64,000 bases of DNA from Arcobacter defluvii (GCF_013201725.1 NZ_CP053835.1:744001-808000), one strand, 5' to 3'; positions 1,994-13,016 are shown, counted from the stretch's first letter. The notes: generated by a model from the letters alone, not told the origin. Made by a program: numbers and translations.

Positions 1994-2018
1994 AGCTATG
2001 TCTTAGTAAGACATAGCT
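1994..2018. terminator. Hairpin between the convergent XRE and suf transcripts
   Basis: An 11-bp perfect stem (AGCTATGTCTT with AAGACATAGCT) and a three-base loop lie where the XRE gene and the suf operon converge. The stop of the sufT-like gene is within the stem. There is no clear U-tract on either side, so termination strength is uncertain. Confidence 0.45.
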
Positions 2019-2356
2019 GCTCCACTTGCTCCCATAATCTCTTTCGCATCTTCACTCATCATAGATGGATCCCAAATAGGCTCAAACACTAGATTTACTT
2101 TTACTTCATCAACTTCATCAACTGCCAAAGTTACATATTTTACTTGTTCAAGTAAACTATCTGCAACTGGACAAGCTGGACTTGTAAGTGTCATATCTAT
2201 TTCACAATTAAGATAATTTCCTCTTTCTTCAAGTCTTATATCATAAATTAATCCAAGATTATAAATATCAGCTGGAATTTCCGGGTCATATACTTTTTTT
2301 AAATTTTCTATTATTTTTTCTTTTATATTTTCTAAATCAAAAATTTTATCATCCAT
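2003..2356 (-). CDS. sufT: SufT-like iron-sulfur assembly factor (MIP18/DUF59 family)
   Basis: The 117-residue protein carries the MIP18 (DUF59) domain. VYDPEIPADIYNLGLIYDI at about 22-40 matches the family hallmark DPE(I/L)-P-V-N-I-x-D-LGLIY. LTSPACPVADSLLEQV at about 57-72 contains the conserved T-S-P-x-C-P motif, whose Cys is the probable cluster or metal ligand. SufT/MIP18 proteins help mature Fe-S proteins. As the last gene of the sufBCDSE series, 10 bp after sufE, it is almost certainly part of this operon. The C-terminal tail ends in a short Gly/Ala-rich stretch. I am confident of the family; the symbol follows usage for suf-linked copies. Confidence 0.85.
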   Translation of the reverse strand: MDDKIFDLENIKEKIIENLKKVYDPEIPADIYNLGLIYDIRLEERGNYLNCEIDMTLTSPACPVADSLLEQVKYVTLAVDEVDEVKVNLVFEPIWDPSMMSEDAKEIMGASGAAMSY

Positions 2357-2366
2357 TTTAAATCCT

Positions 2367-2777
2367 TTATGCTTTTAAAGCATACTCTTTTATTTTTTTC
2401 ATCATTCCAATAACTCCACTTTGTCTATTTGGAGTTATAACTTCACTAAGTTTCAGTTCATGAACAATATCCATATCAATATCTTTTAATTCTTGTATAG
2501 TTGCACCAGAAAAAATTTTTAATATCATATAAACTAAACCTTTTACAATTATTGCATCACTTGTACCGTGAAAATACATTTTTCCATCTTTTATCTCATG
2601 TGTTAACCAAACTTGAGAAGTACAACCATGAACTATATTTGCTGGTATTTTGTCAGTTTCATTAAACTCTTCTAGTTTTTTTCCTAAATCAATAATATAT
2701 TCATATTTTGCAAGTTCATCATCAAAAAAATCTAAATCTTCTTTTATCTCATTTACTCTTTCTTCAATGCTACTCAT
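2367..2777 (-). CDS. sufE: Cysteine desulfuration protein SufE
   Basis: This 136-residue protein has the SufE sequence IVHGCTSQVWL around residue 52. C52 is the conserved Cys that takes persulfide sulfur from SufS. SufE stimulates SufS and passes sulfur on to the SufBCD scaffold in the cytoplasm. It lies one base after the sufS stop, in the usual SufS-SufE order, and length matches the family. Nothing is odd. Confidence 0.93.
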   Translation of the reverse strand: MSSIEERVNEIKEDLDFFDDELAKYEYIIDLGKKLEEFNETDKIPANIVHGCTSQVWLTHEIKDGKMYFHGTSDAIIVKGLVYMILKIFSGATIQELKDIDMDIVHELKLSEVITPNRQSGVIGMMKKIKEYALKA

Positions 2778-2778
2778 T

Positions 2779-3963
2779 TTATCCCTTTAACATCGTTAAG
2801 GCTCTTTTTAATGCCTCAATTAATTTATCAACATCAACATAATCATTATAAAAAGCTGTGCTAACTCTAATAGTTCCTTTTACTCCAAGTTTTTTCATAA
2901 TAGGTTGTGCACAGTGATGACCAACTCTTAGAGCAACTCCCATTTTATCAAGAAGTATTCCAATATCGTCGTGAACTATTCCTTTGAAGTTGAAACTTCT
3001 ACTTCCAATTGCATTTGTAATGTCATTGTAAAATACAATATCTGGAAGTTTTGCTAACTCTTCATCTAAATATTTAAAAACTTTATGTTCTAAATTTTCA
3101 ATATTTTCATATCTTACATGATTTATATATTCTAATGCTTTTCCAAAACCTATAACACCAGCAATATTTTGTGTTCCTGCTTCAAATTTATATGGAGAAT
3201 CAAGTAAAGTTGAACCATTAAAATCAACTTCATGTATAGTTGCTCCACCAGTTTGATAAGGTTTTATATCTTTTAGATATTTTTCTTTTATATAAATTGC
3301 TCCAACACCAGTTGGTCCAAATGTTTTATGACCAGAAATTGCAAAAAAATCAACATCAAGTTTTTGCATATCTACTTTTAGATGAGCCAAACTTTGAGCT
3401 CCATCACACATAACAACAGCTCCATAAGAGTGAGCTAGTTTTGTAATAGCTTCTATATCATGGATTTTTCCAAAAGCATTTGAAATATGAGTAATACTTA
3501 CAAAAGCATTTGGATTAGCTTTTAAAAGTTCTTCAAAATGGTTCATATCAAAATCTAAATTTTCATTACAATTTACAACTTCAAGACCATTTCCCAAAGT
3601 TCTTCCTTGCATATGCCAAGGTACGATATTTGAGTGGTGTTCTAAACTAGAAATTATTACAGTTTTAAAATCTTTTGCAAAAGATGTTGCTATAAAGTTT
3701 AAAGATTCTGTTACACCTTTTGTAAAAACAATTTCCTCTTTTGCTGAAGCATTTATAAACTCTTTTAAAAGGATTCTTACTTTCTCAAACTCCAAAGTCG
3801 CCCTATTAGCATCGCCAAAGTTACTTCTATGAGTGTTTGAGCAATAATGTTCATAATATTCAACTTGCGAATCTATAACACTTTTTGGTTTTTGAGTTGT
3901 TGCTCCATTATCCAAATAAATAGTTTTTGAGTTTTGGAAGTATGGAAAATCATTTTTAAACAT
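2779..3963 (-). CDS. sufS: Cysteine desulfurase SufS
   Basis: This 394-residue PLP enzyme converts L-cysteine to L-alanine and an enzyme-bound persulfide. ISGHKTFGPTGVG places the PLP lysine at K213. RVGHHCAQP places the persulfide Cys at C351 in the short loop of group II desulfurases, which need SufE; that partner is the next gene. TYLDNGATTQKP-type N-terminus and SNAFGKIHDI are further class-V aminotransferase blocks. The start overlaps the end of sufD by 8 bp, showing tight coupling. It is distinct from the NifS paralogue at 10806-12002. Confidence 0.95.
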   Translation of the reverse strand: MFKNDFPYFQNSKTIYLDNGATTQKPKSVIDSQVEYYEHYCSNTHRSNFGDANRATLEFEKVRILLKEFINASAKEEIVFTKGVTESLNFIATSFAKDFKTVIISSLEHHSNIVPWHMQGRTLGNGLEVVNCNENLDFDMNHFEELLKANPNAFVSITHISNAFGKIHDIEAITKLAHSYGAVVMCDGAQSLAHLKVDMQKLDVDFFAISGHKTFGPTGVGAIYIKEKYLKDIKPYQTGGATIHEVDFNGSTLLDSPYKFEAGTQNIAGVIGFGKALEYINHVRYENIENLEHKVFKYLDEELAKLPDIVFYNDITNAIGSRSFNFKGIVHDDIGILLDKMGVALRVGHHCAQPIMKKLGVKGTIRVSTAFYNDYVDVDKLIEALKRALTMLKG

Positions 3964-4987
3964 ATTTTTCCCTTTTATAATTTTCTACAAACTCTTTTAT
4001 TATCTCATTTTTTATATTAGATTTTATTGTACTTTCAAAAGCATTTAATAACATTTCATAAGCTTTTTCTTTTTTTATACCACGTGAACAAAGATATAAA
4101 AGTTGTTCTTGGTTTAAAGTTCCTGTTGTTGCCCCGTGTGAAGCTTCAAGCTCATCTATTAAAATTTCAAGATGAGGTTGTGCAAAAATTGTTGCATCAT
4201 CACTTAATAATATAGTGTTACAGTTTTGAAATGCTTTTGTAAATGGTGCTGTTTCATTTACAATAGATTTTATTTTTACAACAGCTTTTGAACTATCTTT
4301 TAAAGAATTCTTATAGTTTATTGAACTTGTAGAATTTTTTTCGTTATGCACTGTTTTTACTAAAGTTGCAGTTGTTGAATCATTTGATAATTTAGTCAAT
4401 CCATTTAATTCATAGTTCACAAACTCTTTATTTATAATATTTTCAAAACTATTTACTATAAAACCATCACCAAACTCAAGATTTGTTATTTCAAGATTTG
4501 AGCTTTTTTCTTGTTTTATACTATTTGCAAAAATCATAGAATTTGAAGCATTTATATCTTGAATTTTTACATATTCCAAAGAGGCATTTTCTTCTAAAAC
4601 TATATTTCTATTTACTGTAAAAGCAGAGTTTGTAGAACTGTTTACAAAAACTTCTACAACTTGAGCTTTGATATTTTCTTTTACTTCTATTTTTAAAGAG
4701 TTAGAAAAAAGTGTTTCATCTTCTTTTATTTTATGAATTAAAAAAATTGGTTCAGCAATATTTTTATCTATAGTTAAAACTTTTTGATTTTCATCTAAAC
4801 TTTTTGTAATATTAAATAAAACAGATTCATAAGAGTTTTCATCTTTTATAGTTTTTAAACCCATAATATCAAATTCATAAGTTTTAGTTTCTTTAAATTC
4901 AGTAGAAAACAAAGAATCAAAATTTATTTTTAAAAACTCTTCATCTTTTTTATTTGGAAGATTGGTGTTTAATTCATTTATTTTCAT
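3956..4987 (-). CDS. sufD: Fe-S cluster assembly protein SufD
   Basis: The 343-residue protein belongs to the SufB/SufD beta-helix family. The C-terminal half has the conserved pattern, including ATIFAQPHLEILIDELEASHGATTG followed by LYLCSRGIKKEKA; the H in ASHGAT is the conserved SufD histidine. SufD partners SufB and the ATPase SufC in the SufBC2D scaffold that builds clusters. It overlaps sufC by 14 bp upstream and sufS by 8 bp downstream. The N-terminal 100 residues are divergent and shorter than in E. coli SufD. Confidence 0.9.
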   Translation of the reverse strand: MKINELNTNLPNKKDEEFLKINFDSLFSTEFKETKTYEFDIMGLKTIKDENSYESVLFNITKSLDENQKVLTIDKNIAEPIFLIHKIKEDETLFSNSLKIEVKENIKAQVVEVFVNSSTNSAFTVNRNIVLEENASLEYVKIQDINASNSMIFANSIKQEKSSNLEITNLEFGDGFIVNSFENIINKEFVNYELNGLTKLSNDSTTATLVKTVHNEKNSTSSINYKNSLKDSSKAVVKIKSIVNETAPFTKAFQNCNTILLSDDATIFAQPHLEILIDELEASHGATTGTLNQEQLLYLCSRGIKKEKAYEMLLNAFESTIKSNIKNEIIKEFVENYKREKYV

Positions 4988-5741
4988 CTTTTATTCCTAT
5001 TGCTTCATAACCTTTTTCATCTAGTTCTAAAGCTAAGTTATAATCTCCTGTTTTAGCAATTTTTCCATCATTTAAAATATGAACAAAATCAGGTTTAATA
5101 AGTTCTAAAAGTCTATCATAGTGTGTAATCATTAAAATTGATCGTTTTCCATCAAGCATTGAGTTTATAACATTTGCAACAGTTTTTATAGCATCTACAT
5201 CAAGCCCTGAATCTATCTCATCAAGTATTATTAAATCAGGTTTTAGCATAAGTAGTTGGATTAATTCATTTCTTTTTTTCTCCCCACCACTAAATCCATC
5301 ATTTAAATCTCTTTGTAGTAGTTTTCTATCAATATTAAATTTTGAAGTTTCTTCTTTTACAAGTTTTAAAAATTCCATTGCATCAAGCTCTTTTAGTCCT
5401 TCATATGCTCTTTTTTCATTTATTGCTGTTTTTAAAAAGTAACTATTGTTAACACCTGGAACTTCAACAGGAGTTTGAAAACTCATAAAAATTCCTTCAT
5501 TTGCTCTTTGTGCTACATCCATTTCAAGTAAATCTTTATTTTTATAAGTTATTTTCCCTTCAGTTACAATACAGTCATAATGAGCACTGATTGTTTTTAC
5601 CAAAGTAGATTTTCCTGCTCCATTTGTTCCCATAAGAACATGAACTTCACCTTCATTTATCTCTAAATCTATACCTTTTAAAATCTCTTTATCTTTTATA
5701 TTAACTTTTAAATTTTCTATTTTTAATAATCTATTTTTCAT
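4974..5741 (-). CDS. sufC: Fe-S assembly ATPase SufC
   Basis: A 255-residue ABC-type ATPase. Walker A is GTNGAGKST (about 39-47), the Q-loop sits in FMSFQTPVEVPG, the signature is GFSGGEKKR, and Walker B is LIILDEIDSGLD with a D-loop, all specific to SufC. There is no membrane domain, so it works as the soluble energy unit of SufBC2D. It sits 3 bp after sufB and overlaps sufD. Length is normal. Confidence 0.96.
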   Translation of the reverse strand: MKNRLLKIENLKVNIKDKEILKGIDLEINEGEVHVLMGTNGAGKSTLVKTISAHYDCIVTEGKITYKNKDLLEMDVAQRANEGIFMSFQTPVEVPGVNNSYFLKTAINEKRAYEGLKELDAMEFLKLVKEETSKFNIDRKLLQRDLNDGFSGGEKKRNELIQLLMLKPDLIILDEIDSGLDVDAIKTVANVINSMLDGKRSILMITHYDRLLELIKPDFVHILNDGKIAKTGDYNLALELDEKGYEAIGIKDENK

Positions 5742-5744
5742 AAT

Positions 5745-7181
5745 TTATCCCACACTTCCTTCAAGCGATATATTTAATAACTCTTTTGCTTCTGCTGCAA
5801 ATTCCATTGGCAATTCTTTTAAAACTTCTTTACAAAAACCATTTACAATCATAGCAATAGCATCTTCTTCTGCAATTCCTCTTTGATTTAAATAAAATAG
5901 TTGTTCATCAGAAATTTTTGAAGTTGTTGCTTCATGTTCTATATTTGCACTGCTATTTCTTATCTCATGATATGGATAAGTATGCGCATGACATTTATTT
6001 CCAATCAAAAGTGAATCACATTCAGAAATATTTCTTGCATTTGAAGCATTTTTTCCAACTCTAACAAGTCCTCTATAAGCATTTACTCCGTGCATTGCAG
6101 AAATACCTTTTGAAATAATTGTTGATTTAGTATTTTTACCTAAATGAACCATTTTTGTTCCAGTATCTGCTTGTTGTGCTTTTGAGGCAATTGCAACTGA
6201 ATAAAACTCTCCAACGCTATTATCTCCTTGAAGTATACAAGAAGGATATTTCCAAGTGATTGCACTTCCAGTTTCAACTTGTGTCCAAGAAATTTTAGAG
6301 TTATCACCTTTACATAAACCTCTTTTTGTTACAAAGTTTAATATTCCACCTTTTCCATTATCATCACCTGGAAACCAGTTTTGAATAGTTGAGTATTTTA
6401 TTTGTGCATTTTTTAAAGCGCATAGTTCAACAACAGCTGCGTGAAGTTGTCTTTCATCTCTTGTTGGAGCAGAACATCCTTCATTGTAAGAAACATAACT
6501 TCCTTCATCACAGATTATCAAGGTTCTTTCAAATTGTCCTGTATTTAAAGCATTTATTCTAAAATAAGTTGAAAGTTCCATCGGACATCTAGTATTAGGT
6601 GGAATATATACAAAACTACCATCAGTAAATACTGCACAATTTAAAGCTGCAAAATAGTTATCAGTTGGTGGAACAACACTTGCTAAATATTCTTTAACAA
6701 GTTCAGGGTATTTATGTGCTGCTTCACTGATTGAACAAAATATAATTCCTAATTTTTCAAGCTCTTCTTGATATGTTGTTTTAACTGAAACAGAATCAAA
6801 AACAGCATCAACTGCAACACCTGCAAGTTGTTTTTGTTCTTCAAGTGGAATACCAAGTTTTTCATAAGTTTTTAAAATTTCAGGGTCAACTTCATCCAAA
6901 GAATTTAAAGCTCGTTTAGGAGCAGAATAGTAAGCAATATCTTGATAATCAATTTTTGGATATTTCAAATGAGCCCAAGTTGGTTCTTCCATCTTTAGCC
7001 ATTTTTTGTATGCTTTTAATCTAAAATCTAAAAGCCAAGATGGTTCATTTTTTTTTGCACTTATGGCTCTTATTACATCTTCATTTAAACCTTTTTCAAA
7101 AGTGTCACTTTGAACTAAAGTTTCAAATCCGAGTTTATACTCTTTATTTATTACGTCATGTATTTGTTGATTCTCACTCAT
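5745..7181 (-). CDS. sufB: Fe-S cluster scaffold SufB
   Basis: This 478-residue protein is highly conserved Suf[21 protein letters not shown] and the following [22 protein letters not shown] carry the core, where the Cys is conserved. [23 protein letters not shown] contains the Cys assigned to cluster assembly in the family. It is the first gene of sufBCDSE-sufT. The ATG at 7181 is preceded by TTGGAG with a short spacing. The promoter region upstream carries two inverted repeats (7210-7234 and 7238-7257) described separately. Confidence 0.96.
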
Positions 7182-7209: not shown

Positions 7210-7234
7210 AAATAAGATAAAAATTATCCTATTT
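7210..7234. promoter_or_regulatory. Inverted repeat in the sufB promoter, Fur-box-like and shared with nifS
   Basis: AAATAAGATAA (7210-7220), three bases, then TTATCCTATTT (7224-7234): 11-bp arms pairing at 10 of 11 positions. The centre GATAAAAATTATC matches a 6-1-6 Fur core (GATAAT-n-ATTATC) at 11 of 12 defined positions. Read on the minus strand, GATAAT can serve as the sufB -10 box, so a bound repressor would cover the promoter. The same two 11-mers occur before nifS. Regulator identity is inference. Confidence 0.55.
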
Positions 7235-7237
7235 AGA

Positions 7238-7257
7238 ATACTATCATAAAGTAGTAT
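7238..7257. promoter_or_regulatory. Second inverted repeat upstream of sufB
   Basis: ATACTA (7238-7243) and TAGTAT (7252-7257) are perfect 6-bp arms separated by 8 bp, located just upstream of the presumed sufB -10. The half-site TACTA is the same as in the XRE palindromes at 1644 and 1704, but the spacing differs. It could be an operator or chance in AT-rich DNA. Confidence 0.35.
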
Positions 7258-7393
7258 ACAATGTAAAGATAAATTATTTTATAAAAATTATATAAATCTA
7301 ATAAAGATTATTTTCAAAATATATTATTTATTTCAAATAAAATTTTAATAAAATTTGTTATAAGATTAAAAAAACTTATAATTGAAAGCCACA

Positions 7394-9169
7394 ATGCACA
7401 TAGAAAAATTCAGAAATTTTATAGAAGAATCAATTTTAACAATTGTTATTTTTTTCTTTTTATTATTCACATCTTTTTTTTATTTTAAATTTCAGTTAGA
7501 AAAAGAGATACAAACTTATTTAACTAATTTAAAACAATTATATGCAACACAATATGATACTATTTACGATAATTTTAACAAACTTTCTCAAAATAGTTTT
7601 TATGGAATTATAAATAAACCAGAAATTTATGATTTAGTAAAATATGCATATAAACAAGATAGTGAACTTCAAAGCTTTTATCGAGAACGTTTGTATCAAA
7701 AATTAATATCTGATTATATTAGATTAAAAGAGTACAAATTTTATCAAATTCATTTTCATTTCCCAGATAATACAAGTTTTTTAAGAATGCACGAAAAAGA
7801 TAAATTTGGAGATAATCTAACAAAAGATAGATTTAGTGTAAAAGAAGTAAATGAAAATTTAAAACCAGTATATGGTTATGAAATAGGGAAAATGGTTGAT
7901 GGATTTAGATTTGTATATCCTCTTTTTGATGAAAAACTTTTTCATATAGGAAGTGTTGAATTATCTGTTAGCTCAGATTTTTTTGAAAAAAATTTTGAAA
8001 CAAGTTTTGATGTTGATGTTCATTTTTTAATTAAAAAATCTATCGTTGAAGAAAGAGTTTTTAAAGAGTATTTGAAAATTTTTGACATTAGTAATGAAAA
8101 TGATGAATATTTATATAAAGAAGATAAAACTAAAGAGTTAAATCATTTTACAAATGAAAATTTCTATACAAATGAAGAAAGAAATCTTATTAAAATAAAA
8201 ATGAAAAATAGTGAAAATTTTTCAATTTATAAAAAAATAAATGGAAATTATATTGCAATTTCATTTTTATCAATAAAAAATACTCAAAATGAAAAAAATG
8301 CAGCTTATATGGTTTTATATAAAAATTCAGATTTTATAAAACAAGTTATGAATAATTATCATAAGATGATTTTGATATTAATTTTAATCTCTATAATTTT
8401 TGTTTTTTATATAAATTATAGATACAAAAAAATACAAGAAGAAAAGAATAAAGAGTATATTTTATCTCAACAGACAAAAATGGTAGCTCTTGGTGAAATG
8501 ATACAAAATATTTCTCATCAATGGAGACAACCTTTAAGTGTTATATCTGTTTTAGCAAGTGGATTAAAACTCAAAAAAGAGGTTAATATTTTAGAGGACA
8601 AAGAATTTTTTGAAAGTTTGGATGGAATACTACATAATACTACTTATTTATCAAATACGATAGAAGATTTTAGAAATTATTTTAATGAAAGTTTAGAAAA
8701 AAGAGCTTTTAATTTAAAAGATACAATTTTACAATGTACTGCAATGTTCAAAGAAGATTTGAATGCAAAAAATATAATTTTAATTGAAAATTTAATCGAT
8801 ATAGAATTATTTACTTATGAAAATGATTTAAAACATGTACTTATAAATCTATTAAAAAATGCAAAAGATTTTACGAAACAAGGTGTAATTCTTGTTGAAA
8901 TGAAAGAAGAAAAAAATGAAATTATTATTGAAATACAAGATAGTGCAGGGGGAATCCCAAAAAATATAATTGAAAAGATTTTTGAACCATATTTTTCTAC
9001 AAAACATAATTCATCGGGAATAGGCTTAGGATTATATAGTGCTTATGAAATAATCACTAAAAAATTTAATGGAAATATTTTGGTTGAAAATAGAACTTTT
9101 GATTACAATTTTGAGAGTTATAAAGGTGCTTGTTTTTCAATAATTTTAGACAAAAAGAATTTACAATAA
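7394..9169 (+). CDS. Membrane sensor histidine kinase, dCache_3-like sensor, HQWRQPL type
   Basis: I take the ATG at 7394 rather than the TTG at 7382, giving 591 residues. TM1 is about 13-33 and TM2 about 325-342, with a periplasmic region between. FHFPDNTSFLRMHEKDKFGD at about 121-140 resembles the double-Cache (dCache_3) block with its SFLR.H...FGD pattern. After TM2 a short helix leads to the phosphoacceptor H375 in ISHQWRQPL. The HATPase part has N-box NLLKNAKDF, then DSAGGIP and GIGLGLYSAYEI. No response regulator lies nearby, so it is an orphan kinase and the signal is unknown. The next gene starts 8 bp downstream and is probably cotranscribed. Confidence 0.88.
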   Translation: MHIEKFRNFIEESILTIVIFFFLLFTSFFYFKFQLEKEIQTYLTNLKQLYATQYDTIYDNFNKLSQNSFYGIINKPEIYDLVKYAYKQDSELQSFYRERLYQKLISDYIRLKEYKFYQIHFHFPDNTSFLRMHEKDKFGDNLTKDRFSVKEVNENLKPVYGYEIGKMVDGFRFVYPLFDEKLFHIGSVELSVSSDFFEKNFETSFDVDVHFLIKKSIVEERVFKEYLKIFDISNENDEYLYKEDKTKELNHFTNENFYTNEERNLIKIKMKNSENFSIYKKINGNYIAISFLSIKNTQNEKNAAYMVLYKNSDFIKQVMNNYHKMILILILISIIFVFYINYRYKKIQEEKNKEYILSQQTKMVALGEMIQNISHQWRQPLSVISVLASGLKLKKEVNILEDKEFFESLDGILHNTTYLSNTIEDFRNYFNESLEKRAFNLKDTILQCTAMFKEDLNAKNIILIENLIDIELFTYENDLKHVLINLLKNAKDFTKQGVILVEMKEEKNEIIIEIQDSAGGIPKNIIEKIFEPYFSTKHNSSGIGLGLYSAYEIITKKFNGNILVENRTFDYNFESYKGACFSIILDKKNLQ

Positions 9170-9177
9170 GGTATGTT

Positions 9178-10644
9178 ATGAAAAATAGTTTTAGTTTAAA
9201 GATTTCATTTTTAGTAGGAGTTTTAACTTTTATAGTTGCTTTAATGGTAGGATTTTATTCTAATTATATATCAACACAACAACTTGAAGTAAATTCAGGT
9301 GAATCATTGCTTAAGTTATCAAAAAGAGTAAATGATATTCTTGATAGAGAGATGTTAGAAAGATTTAGAGAAATCAGATTTGCTGCATCTTTACCAATAA
9401 TGACAGATGAAAATAGTTCAATAAACGAAAAAAGAGAATTGATTCAAAAAATCAAAGATAATTATAATCACCATGAATGGATAGGTTATGCACTTCTTGA
9501 TGGAACAGTTGAAGTTGGAACAAATGGTTATTTAGAAGGTAAAAATGTAAAAGCTAGACCTTGGCATCCAAATGGTTTAAATGGTCCTTATATTGGCGAT
9601 GTTCATGATGCTTTATTATTGGCTAAATTATTACCAAATAATAGTGGTGAAGCTATTTATTTTTCTGATGTGGCATTTCCAGTTATAAATAAAAATGGTA
9701 AAACACTTGGTGTTTTATGTACACATTTAACTTGGCAATGGACAAGAGATGTTATAAGAAGTATTCAACAAGAGCATGGTGTAGAAATCTTTTTATTATC
9801 TAAAGATGGATTGATTTTAGTAGGACCTGAAAATACTGAAAGAGCTAATATCTCAGATATATCTTTAAATGTAGCTCAATTACTTAAAACAGATGAAGAA
9901 TCTTTTAAAATTCTAAATTGGAATAATAATGTTAAATATCTAACTGCAAGTAGTGTAAGTAAAGGATTTGAAGAGTACAAAGGTTTTTCTTGGAAAGTAA
10001 TAGTTAGACAACCAGTTGATGAAGCTTTTAAAATAGCTCATAAAAATACAAGTTTAATTCTTTTAATAAGCGTATTTTTAGGAATTTTAGGTGCGATAAT
10101 TGGAATTATAATATCAAATAAAATCTCAAAACCACTTAATAAGTTAAATCAAATAGTAGATGATATTACTAACAATAAAGAAGTAAAATTTTTGAAAAAT
10201 GTTTCAAATGATGAAATAGGAAAATTACATAATGCTTTAGAAAATTTATATAAAAATTTAATTGAAGAATCTAAAGATAAAAAAAATGCGCAAATTAAAG
10301 TAGAATTGTCATTAAAAATATTTGAACAAGCTTTAGAAGGGATTATTATTTGTGATAAAAACAACAATATAATCTTAGTAAATAGAGCTTTTACTCAAAT
10401 TACAGGATATGAATTAAATGATATTTATGGAAAAAATCCATCAATATTAAATTCTGGTTTACAAAATCAAGAGTTTTATGAAAATATGTGGAATAGGTTA
10501 AGAAAAGATGGAAAATGGGATGGACATCTGAAAAATAAAAGAAAAGATGGAACAATTTATGATGAGTATTTAAAAATCTCAACTCTAAAAGATAGAAAAG
10601 ATGAAATTGTAAACTATTTAGCCACATTTAATAGCGGGTTTTAA
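9178..10644 (+). CDS. Cache-HAMP-PAS sensor lacking an output domain (probably truncated)
   Basis: The start is ATG 9178, preceded by AAGG with six-base spacing; an in-frame TTG at 9130 would overlap the kinase and is less likely. The 488-residue product has TM1 at about 8-28, a periplasmic Cache region with WIGYALLDG and AIYFSDVAFPVINKNGKTLG, TM2 at about 286-309, a HAMP linker (ISNKISKPLNKLNQIV), then a PAS domain from about 372 (NNIILVNRAFTQITGY). It ends abruptly at YLATFNSGF where relatives continue as ATFNDIT... into GGDEF/EAL or kinase modules. No remains of such a module are visible in the 160 bp downstream, so the 3' part seems deleted. It may be non-functional, or act by interacting with the adjacent kinase. 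Confidence 0.75.
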   Translation: MKNSFSLKISFLVGVLTFIVALMVGFYSNYISTQQLEVNSGESLLKLSKRVNDILDREMLERFREIRFAASLPIMTDENSSINEKRELIQKIKDNYNHHEWIGYALLDGTVEVGTNGYLEGKNVKARPWHPNGLNGPYIGDVHDALLLAKLLPNNSGEAIYFSDVAFPVINKNGKTLGVLCTHLTWQWTRDVIRSIQQEHGVEIFLLSKDGLILVGPENTERANISDISLNVAQLLKTDEESFKILNWNNNVKYLTASSVSKGFEEYKGFSWKVIVRQPVDEAFKIAHKNTSLILLISVFLGILGAIIGIIISNKISKPLNKLNQIVDDITNNKEVKFLKNVSNDEIGKLHNALENLYKNLIEESKDKKNAQIKVELSLKIFEQALEGIIICDKNNNIILVNRAFTQITGYELNDIYGKNPSILNSGLQNQEFYENMWNRLRKDGKWDGHLKNKRKDGTIYDEYLKISTLKDRKDEIVNYLATFNSGF

Positions 10645-10676
10645 AACTTTGATTAGTATAATAAAACTTACTGTAT

Positions 10677-10716
10677 AAATAAGATAAAAACAATTAAGAC
10701 AAGATTTATCCTATTT
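10677..10716. promoter_or_regulatory. Split inverted repeat before nifS, same 11-mers as before sufB
   Basis: AAATAAGATAA (10677-10687) and TTATCCTATTT (10706-10716) are exactly the two arms found at 7210-7234, here 18 bp apart instead of 3 bp. The right arm ends five bases before the TAAAAT -10 candidate at 10721-10726, a position suited to an operator. Confidence 0.55.
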
Positions 10717-10720
10717 TCAT

Positions 10721-10726
10721 TAAAAT
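10721..10726 (+). promoter_or_regulatory. -10 box candidate for nifSU
   Basis: TAAAAT followed by ACG lies about 80 bp upstream of the nifS start and directly after the inverted repeat arm at 10706-10716. It is the best -10 match between the truncated sensor gene and nifS. Confidence 0.4.
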
Positions 10727-10766
10727 ACGAAAAAGTTTTTATTTGTAACAATTAATTTTGGAATAG

Positions 10767-12002
<1,236 letters not shown>

Positions 12003-12035
12003 TAGAAAATCGAATAATATTTAAAGGAAAATAAG

Positions 12036-13016
12036 ATGGCAAAAAATAGTTTAATAAGCGGATCGATTTGGGATGAATACTCAAATCAAGTTGTAAATAG
12101 AATGAACAACCCTAAACATCAAGGGGAAATTACTGAAGAAAAAGCTGCAGAACTTGGAGCAAAATTAATTGTTGCAGATTTTGGAGCGGAATCATGTGGT
12201 GATGCTGTAAGACTTTATTGGGCAGTTGATGAAAATACAGATAAAATTTTAGAATCAAAATTTAAATCTTTTGGTTGTGGTACTGCAATCGCATCATCTG
12301 ATGTTATGGCTGAATTATGTATTGGAAAAACAGTTGATGAAGCTGTAAAAATTACAAATATTGATGTTGAATTTGCATTAAGAGATACTCCTGATGTTCC
12401 AGCTGTTCCACCTCAAAAAATGCACTGTTCGGTTATGGCTTATGATGTTATCAAAAAAGCAGCAGCTGAATACAAAGGTGTTGATATGGAATCTTTTGAG
12501 GAAGAGCAAATCGTTTGCGAATGTGCAAGGGTTTCATTAGCTACTTTAAAAGAAGTAATCAAAATCAATGATTTAAAAACTGTTGAAGAAATTACAGATT
12601 ATACAAAAGCAGGAGCTTTTTGTAAATCATGTATTAAACCAGGTGGACATGAAGCAAAAGATATCTATTTAGTAGATATTTTAAAAGATGTTAGAGCTGA
12701 AATGGAACATAATAAATTAAAAACAGCAGCAGATGCAAGTGCAGCTGGTGAATTAACATTTGATAAAATGACATTAGTTCAAAGAATTAAAACTATTGAT
12801 TCAGTTTTAGATTCAGACATTAGACCAATGTTAGTTATGGATGGTGGAAATATGGAGATTATTGATATCAAAGAAAATCTACCACATTATGATATTTATA
12901 TCAGATATTTAGGTTCTTGTTCAGGATGTTCGTCTGGAAGTACAGGAACTTTATTTGCAATTGAATCTGTATTACAACAAAAAATTGATGAAAATTTAAG
13001 AGTTTTACCAATCTGA
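12036..13016 (+). CDS. nifU: Fe-S scaffold NifU, three-domain
   Basis: The 326-residue protein has the complete NifU layout. The IscU-like scaffold has Cys at 54, 81 and 131 (ESCGDA, FGCGTA, MHCSVM). The central Bfd-like [2Fe-2S] domain has C161, C163, C196 and C199 (CECARVS and CKSC). The C-terminal NifU-like domain carries C295 and C298 (GSCSGC). It receives sulfur from NifS and hands clusters to apo-proteins. Start ATG 12036 has AAGGA upstream. A strong terminator follows the gene. Confidence 0.95.
   Translation: MAKNSLISGSIWDEYSNQVVNRMNNPKHQGEITEEKAAELGAKLIVADFGAESCGDAVRLYWAVDENTDKILESKFKSFGCGTAIASSDVMAELCIGKTVDEAVKITNIDVEFALRDTPDVPAVPPQKMHCSVMAYDVIKKAAAEYKGVDMESFEEEQIVCECARVSLATLKEVIKINDLKTVEEITDYTKAGAFCKSCIKPGGHEAKDIYLVDILKDVRAEMEHNKLKTAADASAAGELTFDKMTLVQRIKTIDSVLDSDIRPMLVMDGGNMEIIDIKENLPHYDIYIRYLGSCSGCSSGSTGTLFAIESVLQQKIDENLRVLPI

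Follow-up and report, generated by a model that had tools for sequence, protein, structure and literature searches.

IscR is a winged-helix regulator of the Rrf2 family that carries three conserved cysteines, controls two iron-sulfur (Fe-S) assembly systems, isc and suf in E. coli, and acts from 25-bp palindromic sites that overlap promoters, including that of its own gene. The E. coli type 1 IscR site is 25 bp long with GACT...AGTC arms, the cysteines of the protein follow the spacing C-X5-C-X5-C, and His107 is the histidine ligand. Oxidation of the cluster and superoxide relieve the repression of isc by IscR (PMC12594620). A lineage-specific form, the IscR of Rhodobacteraceae, has a single cysteine, atypical cluster ligands and its own palindrome, the 19-bp Iron-Rhodo-box, whose sites overlap or lie near -35 and -10 elements, and it controls iron-uptake and storage genes (PMC4618611). 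NsrR, RsrR, RirA and CymR share the same fold; NsrR, CymR and RirA are concerned with NO, cysteine and iron uptake, respectively. A search of open-licence papers turned up neither a Campylobacterota regulator for Fe-S assembly nor an epsilonproteobacterial IscR; in C. jejuni 81-176, CJJ81176_0891, annotated as 'RrF2 family protein, putative', is on the list of determinants from a study of fitness by transposon sequencing (PMC5438104). Here we analyze a window of 64,000 nucleotides (the whole stretch of DNA considered, bases 744001-808000 of the complete 3.02-Mb genome of Arcobacter defluvii, a member of the Arcobacter group), in which two Fe-S assembly routes, the suf operon and the nifSU genes, share a promoter element. 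Comparison of sequences indicates that this element is very probably the operator of an IscR-like, three-cysteine Rrf2 regulator common to suf and nifSU.

Both promoters contain one compact 25-bp palindrome, AAWTARGAYAA-N3-TTRTCYTAWTT (Table 1). A preliminary description of this DNA had reported two 11-mers in the same order in both promoters, and these are present, without mismatches, where they had been placed: AAATAAGATAA at 7210-7220 and 10677-10687, and TTATCCTATTT at 7224-7234 and 10706-10716, the halves pairing as an inverted repeat at 10 of 11 positions, as had also been said. The 18-bp spacer described at nif was a misparse, since the nif promoter has its own compact 11-3-11 site, which had been missed; the right half belongs to this site, and the 11-mer at 10677 is consequently an additional half-site. 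When scored with a matrix trained on the suf and nif promoters of the genus, the suf and nif sites reached 30.8 and 30.1, the third-best place in the window 5.2, and the 25-bp frame starting at 10677 only -13.8; this ranking is partly circular because the two sites belong to the training set, while the test on other families described below is not. In 64 kb there are just two copies of the first 11-mer, where about 0.35-0.47 would be expected per strand, and three of the second, where the expectation is about 0.13. The ordered pair, at a spacing of 0-30 bp, is found three times in 3.02 Mb compared with none for a reversed-pattern control, the third pair lying upstream of selO with a 3-bp spacer.

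The palindrome is conserved. At least one match with no more than one mismatch was found in all 25 genomes of the genus and in 2 of 16 genomes outside it; the sufB operator lies at -46 to -63 in each of the 24 testable genus genomes, and the nifS operator is present in 12 of 12 genus promoters. All testable members of the genus have the same operator before sufB and before nifS, and it also precedes nifS across the order, which supports the earlier idea that one regulator serves both Fe-S routes. The two outcomes that the preliminary description had named as refuting, random positions genome-wide and absence from the promoters of relatives, did not occur. In two other families the operator precedes superoxide reductase. 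Members of the genus whose genomes have no NifS match (L048 and L057) keep the operator before a nifU-like gene next to suf.

At suf the site would act on the leftward sufB promoter, whose putative -35-like and -10-like elements are separated by a spacer of 17-18; it lies 3 bp from the -10-like element, and since the promoter is placed directly before it, it probably overlaps the start of transcription. At nif a conserved -10-like element follows immediately after the operator. Both positions would suit a repressor.

The element could be linked to one particular Rrf2 protein, referred to here as L035-type, by relating the presence of this protein to the highest matrix score within 250 bp upstream of nifS in 110 genomes of Campylobacterales. 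Scores above 5.5 were obtained for 61 of the 72 nifS entries accompanied by the protein (with 60 entries reaching 10 or more; mean 17.4), and for 1 of the 16 entries without it (mean -9.4), shuffled promoters averaging about -11 in both groups; the association is significant (Fisher p = 3e-9), and at the family level the site is found in 15 of 16 families with the protein and in 0 of 4 without it (p = 0.001). The sole genome with a site and no such Rrf2 (G060) comes from an assembly of 82% completeness, and the protein is present in G045, of the same genus. The 11 negative entries that do have it include six in family f15 (G038, G055, G070, G083, G096 and G121), where the Rrf2 is diverged (32-41% identity), two second copies of nifS, and one entry, G066, that appears misplaced because the retrieved segment began elsewhere than at the nifS start. 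Furthermore, 12 of 78 named genomes, compared with 1 of 1560 shuffles, have a site of at least 10 bits in the 130 bp before the Rrf2 gene itself, and sites also precede this gene in members of families f1 (G116), f7, f9, f18 and f20. These sites tie the regulator to the operator independently of nifS.

The candidate regulator of A. defluvii is encoded outside the window (G000:C1:483031-483429), between genes read as rpsO and a DHH-type gene, and is one of three Rrf2 proteins of this genome; its named relatives are from Aliarcobacter, Arcobacter, Poseidonibacter and Malaciobacter. It exceeds the cut-offs of the Rrf2 superfamily model TIGR00738 (112.8 bits, cut-off 73.3) and of PF02082, misses those of the IscR equivalog models TIGR02010 (75.9 vs 207.55 bits) and PRK10857 (46.2 vs 275), and is far below those of the NCBIfam models for RirA, CymR and NsrR. 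The closest solved sequences are those of E. coli IscR (E = 2e-9), and the structure modelled by AlphaFold for a relative of 84% identity (pLDDT 86.7), with a winged helix and a long dimerisation helix, finds its best matches in RsrR, IscR, CymR and NsrR (TMq 0.7-0.8). The protein is most likely IscR-like in its action and not an IscR equivalog. Its three cysteines, spaced C-X6-C-X7-C, are invariant in 15 diverse members, and in a wider set of 26 this holds for two of them and almost for the remaining one; the last of the three in the sequence aligns with the position of the IscR histidine in a HMMER alignment whose gapped loop is uncertain. These residues could ligate an Fe-S cluster.

The resemblance to IscR extends to the winged-helix fold, the three cysteines, the presumed control of two Fe-S assembly systems, and 25-bp palindromic sites overlapping promoters and, in some families, preceding the regulator's own gene. 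There are also differences from IscR: the cysteine spacing and the apparent cysteine in place of the histidine, the targets, which here are SUF and NIF-type NifSU, the operator core, GAY-AA-N3-TT-RTC, and the separation of the Rrf2 gene from isc, suf and nif in the loci read. Among 30 Rrf2 loci we found no suf or nif genes, except for one SufC-like ABC match of 28% identity. With the Rhodobacteraceae IscR the present system shares its restriction to a lineage, a palindrome of its own, presumably atypical cluster ligands, and sites at or near -35 and -10 elements; it differs in having three conserved cysteines, a 25-bp site, and Fe-S assembly and stress genes as targets. Its Fe-S assembly targets also set it apart from NsrR, CymR and RirA.

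On this basis we propose that an Rrf2 dimer recognizes the compact 25-bp palindrome of both suf and nifSU. At suf the bound protein would sit immediately after the -10-like element and probably cover the transcription start, and at nifSU it would occupy the stretch immediately before the -10-like element, so that a repressor action would be expected at both. By analogy with IscR, the cluster-bound form would be the repressing one; under iron or oxidative stress the cluster would be lost, and both assembly routes would be derepressed along with genes for an Mrp/ApbC Fe-S carrier and for oxidative-stress functions. Some observations weigh against this proposal. Family f15 has a diverged Rrf2 and no recognizable nifS operator, and it may well use a different binding site; the co-occurrence is phylogenetically correlated, with about four or five independent lineages devoid of the protein, and these lineages may have lost several regulators; and no site precedes the Rrf2 gene of A. 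defluvii, so that autoregulation is not general.

A loss of several regulators would leave room for a binder other than the L035-type protein that disappeared alongside it, for instance an Rrf2 paralogue or a protein of the Crp/Fnr family such as the one encoded near 2932917, a Crp-like gene that is itself preceded by the palindrome. We consider this unlikely. Crp/Fnr sites are shorter than the 25-bp palindrome, and the Rrf2 gene is itself preceded by sites in several families. Other Rrf2 proteins do not appear to be needed, because several families keep the site with an L035-type protein as their single Rrf2 match above the Pfam cut-off, as seen in G027, G028, G030, G032 and G039, while G025, which has a shorter Rrf2 with a CymR-like match and no L035-type protein, lacks the site. 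We accordingly rejected as binders the two paralogues of A. defluvii, one encoded between metY-like and cysK-like genes, the other next to a sulfate-binding-protein-like gene and with CACTAAAT-type boxes of its own. The preliminary description had included Rrf2/IscR-type proteins among its candidates and had suggested Fur, which would bind a compact Fur box around GATAAAAATTATC at suf and split half-sites at nif. The GATAA...TTATC core of the suf site does resemble Fur boxes, A. defluvii has four Fur-family genes, and the targets are linked to iron. However, Fur-family genes are present in 110 of the 110 genomes, and in those that have Fur and lack the Rrf2 protein 15 of 16 nifS promoters have no site; the presence of the site follows the one Rrf2 protein and not Fur. 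Moreover, the conserved motif, which spans 25 bp, has AAATARG as its outer arms and varies between GAC and GAT, is longer than Fur boxes and differently spaced, and no obvious iron-uptake gene adjoins the best matches in the genome, a TonB-receptor-like gene lying about 1.7 kb from the site at 1492028. Control by Fur is, in our opinion, very unlikely.

The separated half-sites, the looping and the 1.5-turn spacing formerly proposed at nif do not agree with the compact site found there, and what could be retained is a co-operation of the half-site at 10677 with the compact site, through two dimers or a loop. This half-site is exact and lies 15 bp away, and the half-site consensus has just one other exact copy on the forward strand of the window; two type I IscR sites have been described at E. 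coli isc (PMC8262890). Yet in an alignment of 14 nifS promoters, where the compact site is kept throughout, the half-site is matched in the nearest relative alone (G017), as the degenerate AAATAGATAA with a 1-nt deletion, and is absent from the other aligned genomes. The compact site alone corresponds to the sites of relatives, and the low score of the frame starting at 10677 also speaks against such a co-operation, which we regard as quite unlikely. The G+C content of both intergenic regions is only 13-17% and a few of the matches in the genome are terminator-like, as would be expected if the repeats were chance products of AT-rich DNA or a transcription terminator or stem; the large excess over reversed and shuffled controls and the position-conserved footprints across families make this extremely improbable. 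The Rrf2 operator therefore remains the reading that we prefer.

Pattern searches of the whole genome, with up to 3 mismatches, were used to define the candidate regulon of this Rrf2 protein. The palindrome was found at 18 places compared with 3 for a reversed control, and the relaxed consensus, with at most 2 mismatches, at 12 compared with 1. The strongest sites precede suf, nifSU, mrp/ApbC (184311; a Pfam NUBPL-type protein, the site lying just after a thiC-like gene) and selO (728255). Weaker sites are located at tpx (678372), upstream of napA (476268), at the Crp-like regulator gene (2932917), at the genes for superoxide reductase (893025) and glutathione peroxidase (937060), and upstream of ccoN (2718896), and the arrangement neighboring the site at 1492028 recurs in relatives. 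A few terminator-like or intragenic matches were left out. As far as can be judged from the genes they precede, these other sites would fit an Fe-S and oxidative-stress regulon. The operator at selO (ydiU; L017 5256-5345) is followed by a sigma-54-like element, TTGGTAGAGTTCTTGC, that is not present in G018. In Salmonella, YdiU UMPylates and inactivates Fur (PMC9239237); an operator at selO would in this way link Fe-S status to iron uptake.

A second, sigma-54-like promoter element of the type GG-N10-GC is located between the nif operator and nifS. It is found in all 7 genus genomes that carry a full nifH, as well as in G016, where nifH is a fragment, and is absent or one base short in four genus genomes that have nifS and lack nifH; a conserved GG-N10-GC element was also seen by eye upstream of nifH itself (TGGAACACAAAGTGCA and variants). 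This tracking of nifH suggests that nifSU may serve housekeeping and nitrogen fixation from two promoters. An element of the same kind is present in G091, from another genus. Furthermore, three genomes have a degenerate operator in the same position, some 170 bp before nifH (L364, at about 38.0-38.3 kb of G000:C1, L365 and L366; scores 3.6, 13.3 and 10.3), and the Rrf2 regulator may thus touch nitrogenase too.

Taken further, and put forward only tentatively, an undescribed Fe-S-sensing Rrf2, with a cysteine replacing the IscR histidine, might act as the master regulator of Fe-S assembly for the majority of Campylobacterales, to which the nifSU genes of nitrogen fixers would add a sigma-54 promoter below the operator. 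If this were true, a single nifSU operon would serve nitrogenase as well in these nitrogen fixers. The case also illustrates how SUF and NIF, two routes retained in one genome, can share one switch, and with the order-wide operator a regulon and its regulator become directly testable.

Table 1. Positions of the operators, promoter elements and genes in the window.
Feature	Position	Strand	Remarks
suf operator, 25 bp, AAATAAGATAA-AAA-TTATCCTATTT	7210..7234	.	0 mismatches to palindromic consensus
nifSU compact operator, 25 bp, AATTAAGACAA-GAT-TTATCCTATTT	10692..10716	.	0 mismatches to relaxed consensus
Extra exact left half-site, AAATAAGATAA	10677..10687	+	15 bp before the left half-site of the nif operator
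Putative suf -10-like element, TAGTAT (TATTAT in several relatives)	7238..7243	-	conserved block, 24-promoter alignment
Putative suf -35-like element, TTTACA	7262..7267	-	conserved TTTACATT block
Putative nif -10-like element, TAAAAT (TAGAAT in most relatives)	10721..10726	+	conserved CATTAGAATAC block
Sigma-54-like -24/-12 element, TTTGGAATAGTTATTGCAAA, GG-N10-GC	10757..10776	+	between nif operator and nifS
suf operon	2003..7181	-	open reading frames
sufB	5745..7181	-	name by reading of translation; relatives 73-97% identical
sufC	4974..5741	-	name by reading of translation
sufD	3956..4987	-	name by reading of translation
sufS	2779..3963	-	name by reading of translation
sufE	2367..2777	-	Pfam SufE
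SufT-like FeS_assembly_P	2003..2356	-	Pfam FeS_assembly_P
nifSU	10806..13016	+	
nifS, cysteine desulfurase	10806..12002	+	Pfam Aminotran_5, plus relatives
nifU, Fe-S scaffold	12036..13016	+	Pfam NifU_N, Fer2_BFD and NifU

Another Rrf2 protein with three cysteines (L033 1248-1980), encoded next to a sulfate-binding-protein-like gene, is flanked by repeated boxes like CACTAAATNGGTGAA, and this looks like a separate sulfur regulon. In the window, the interval between suf and nifS (7382-10644) encodes two signal-transduction proteins, a histidine kinase and a dCache-PAS protein that lacks an output domain. Several relatives have no such interval, their sufB and nifS genes diverging directly from a region of a few hundred bases, and in G011 and G004 a kinase-sized gene likewise lies beside sufB.

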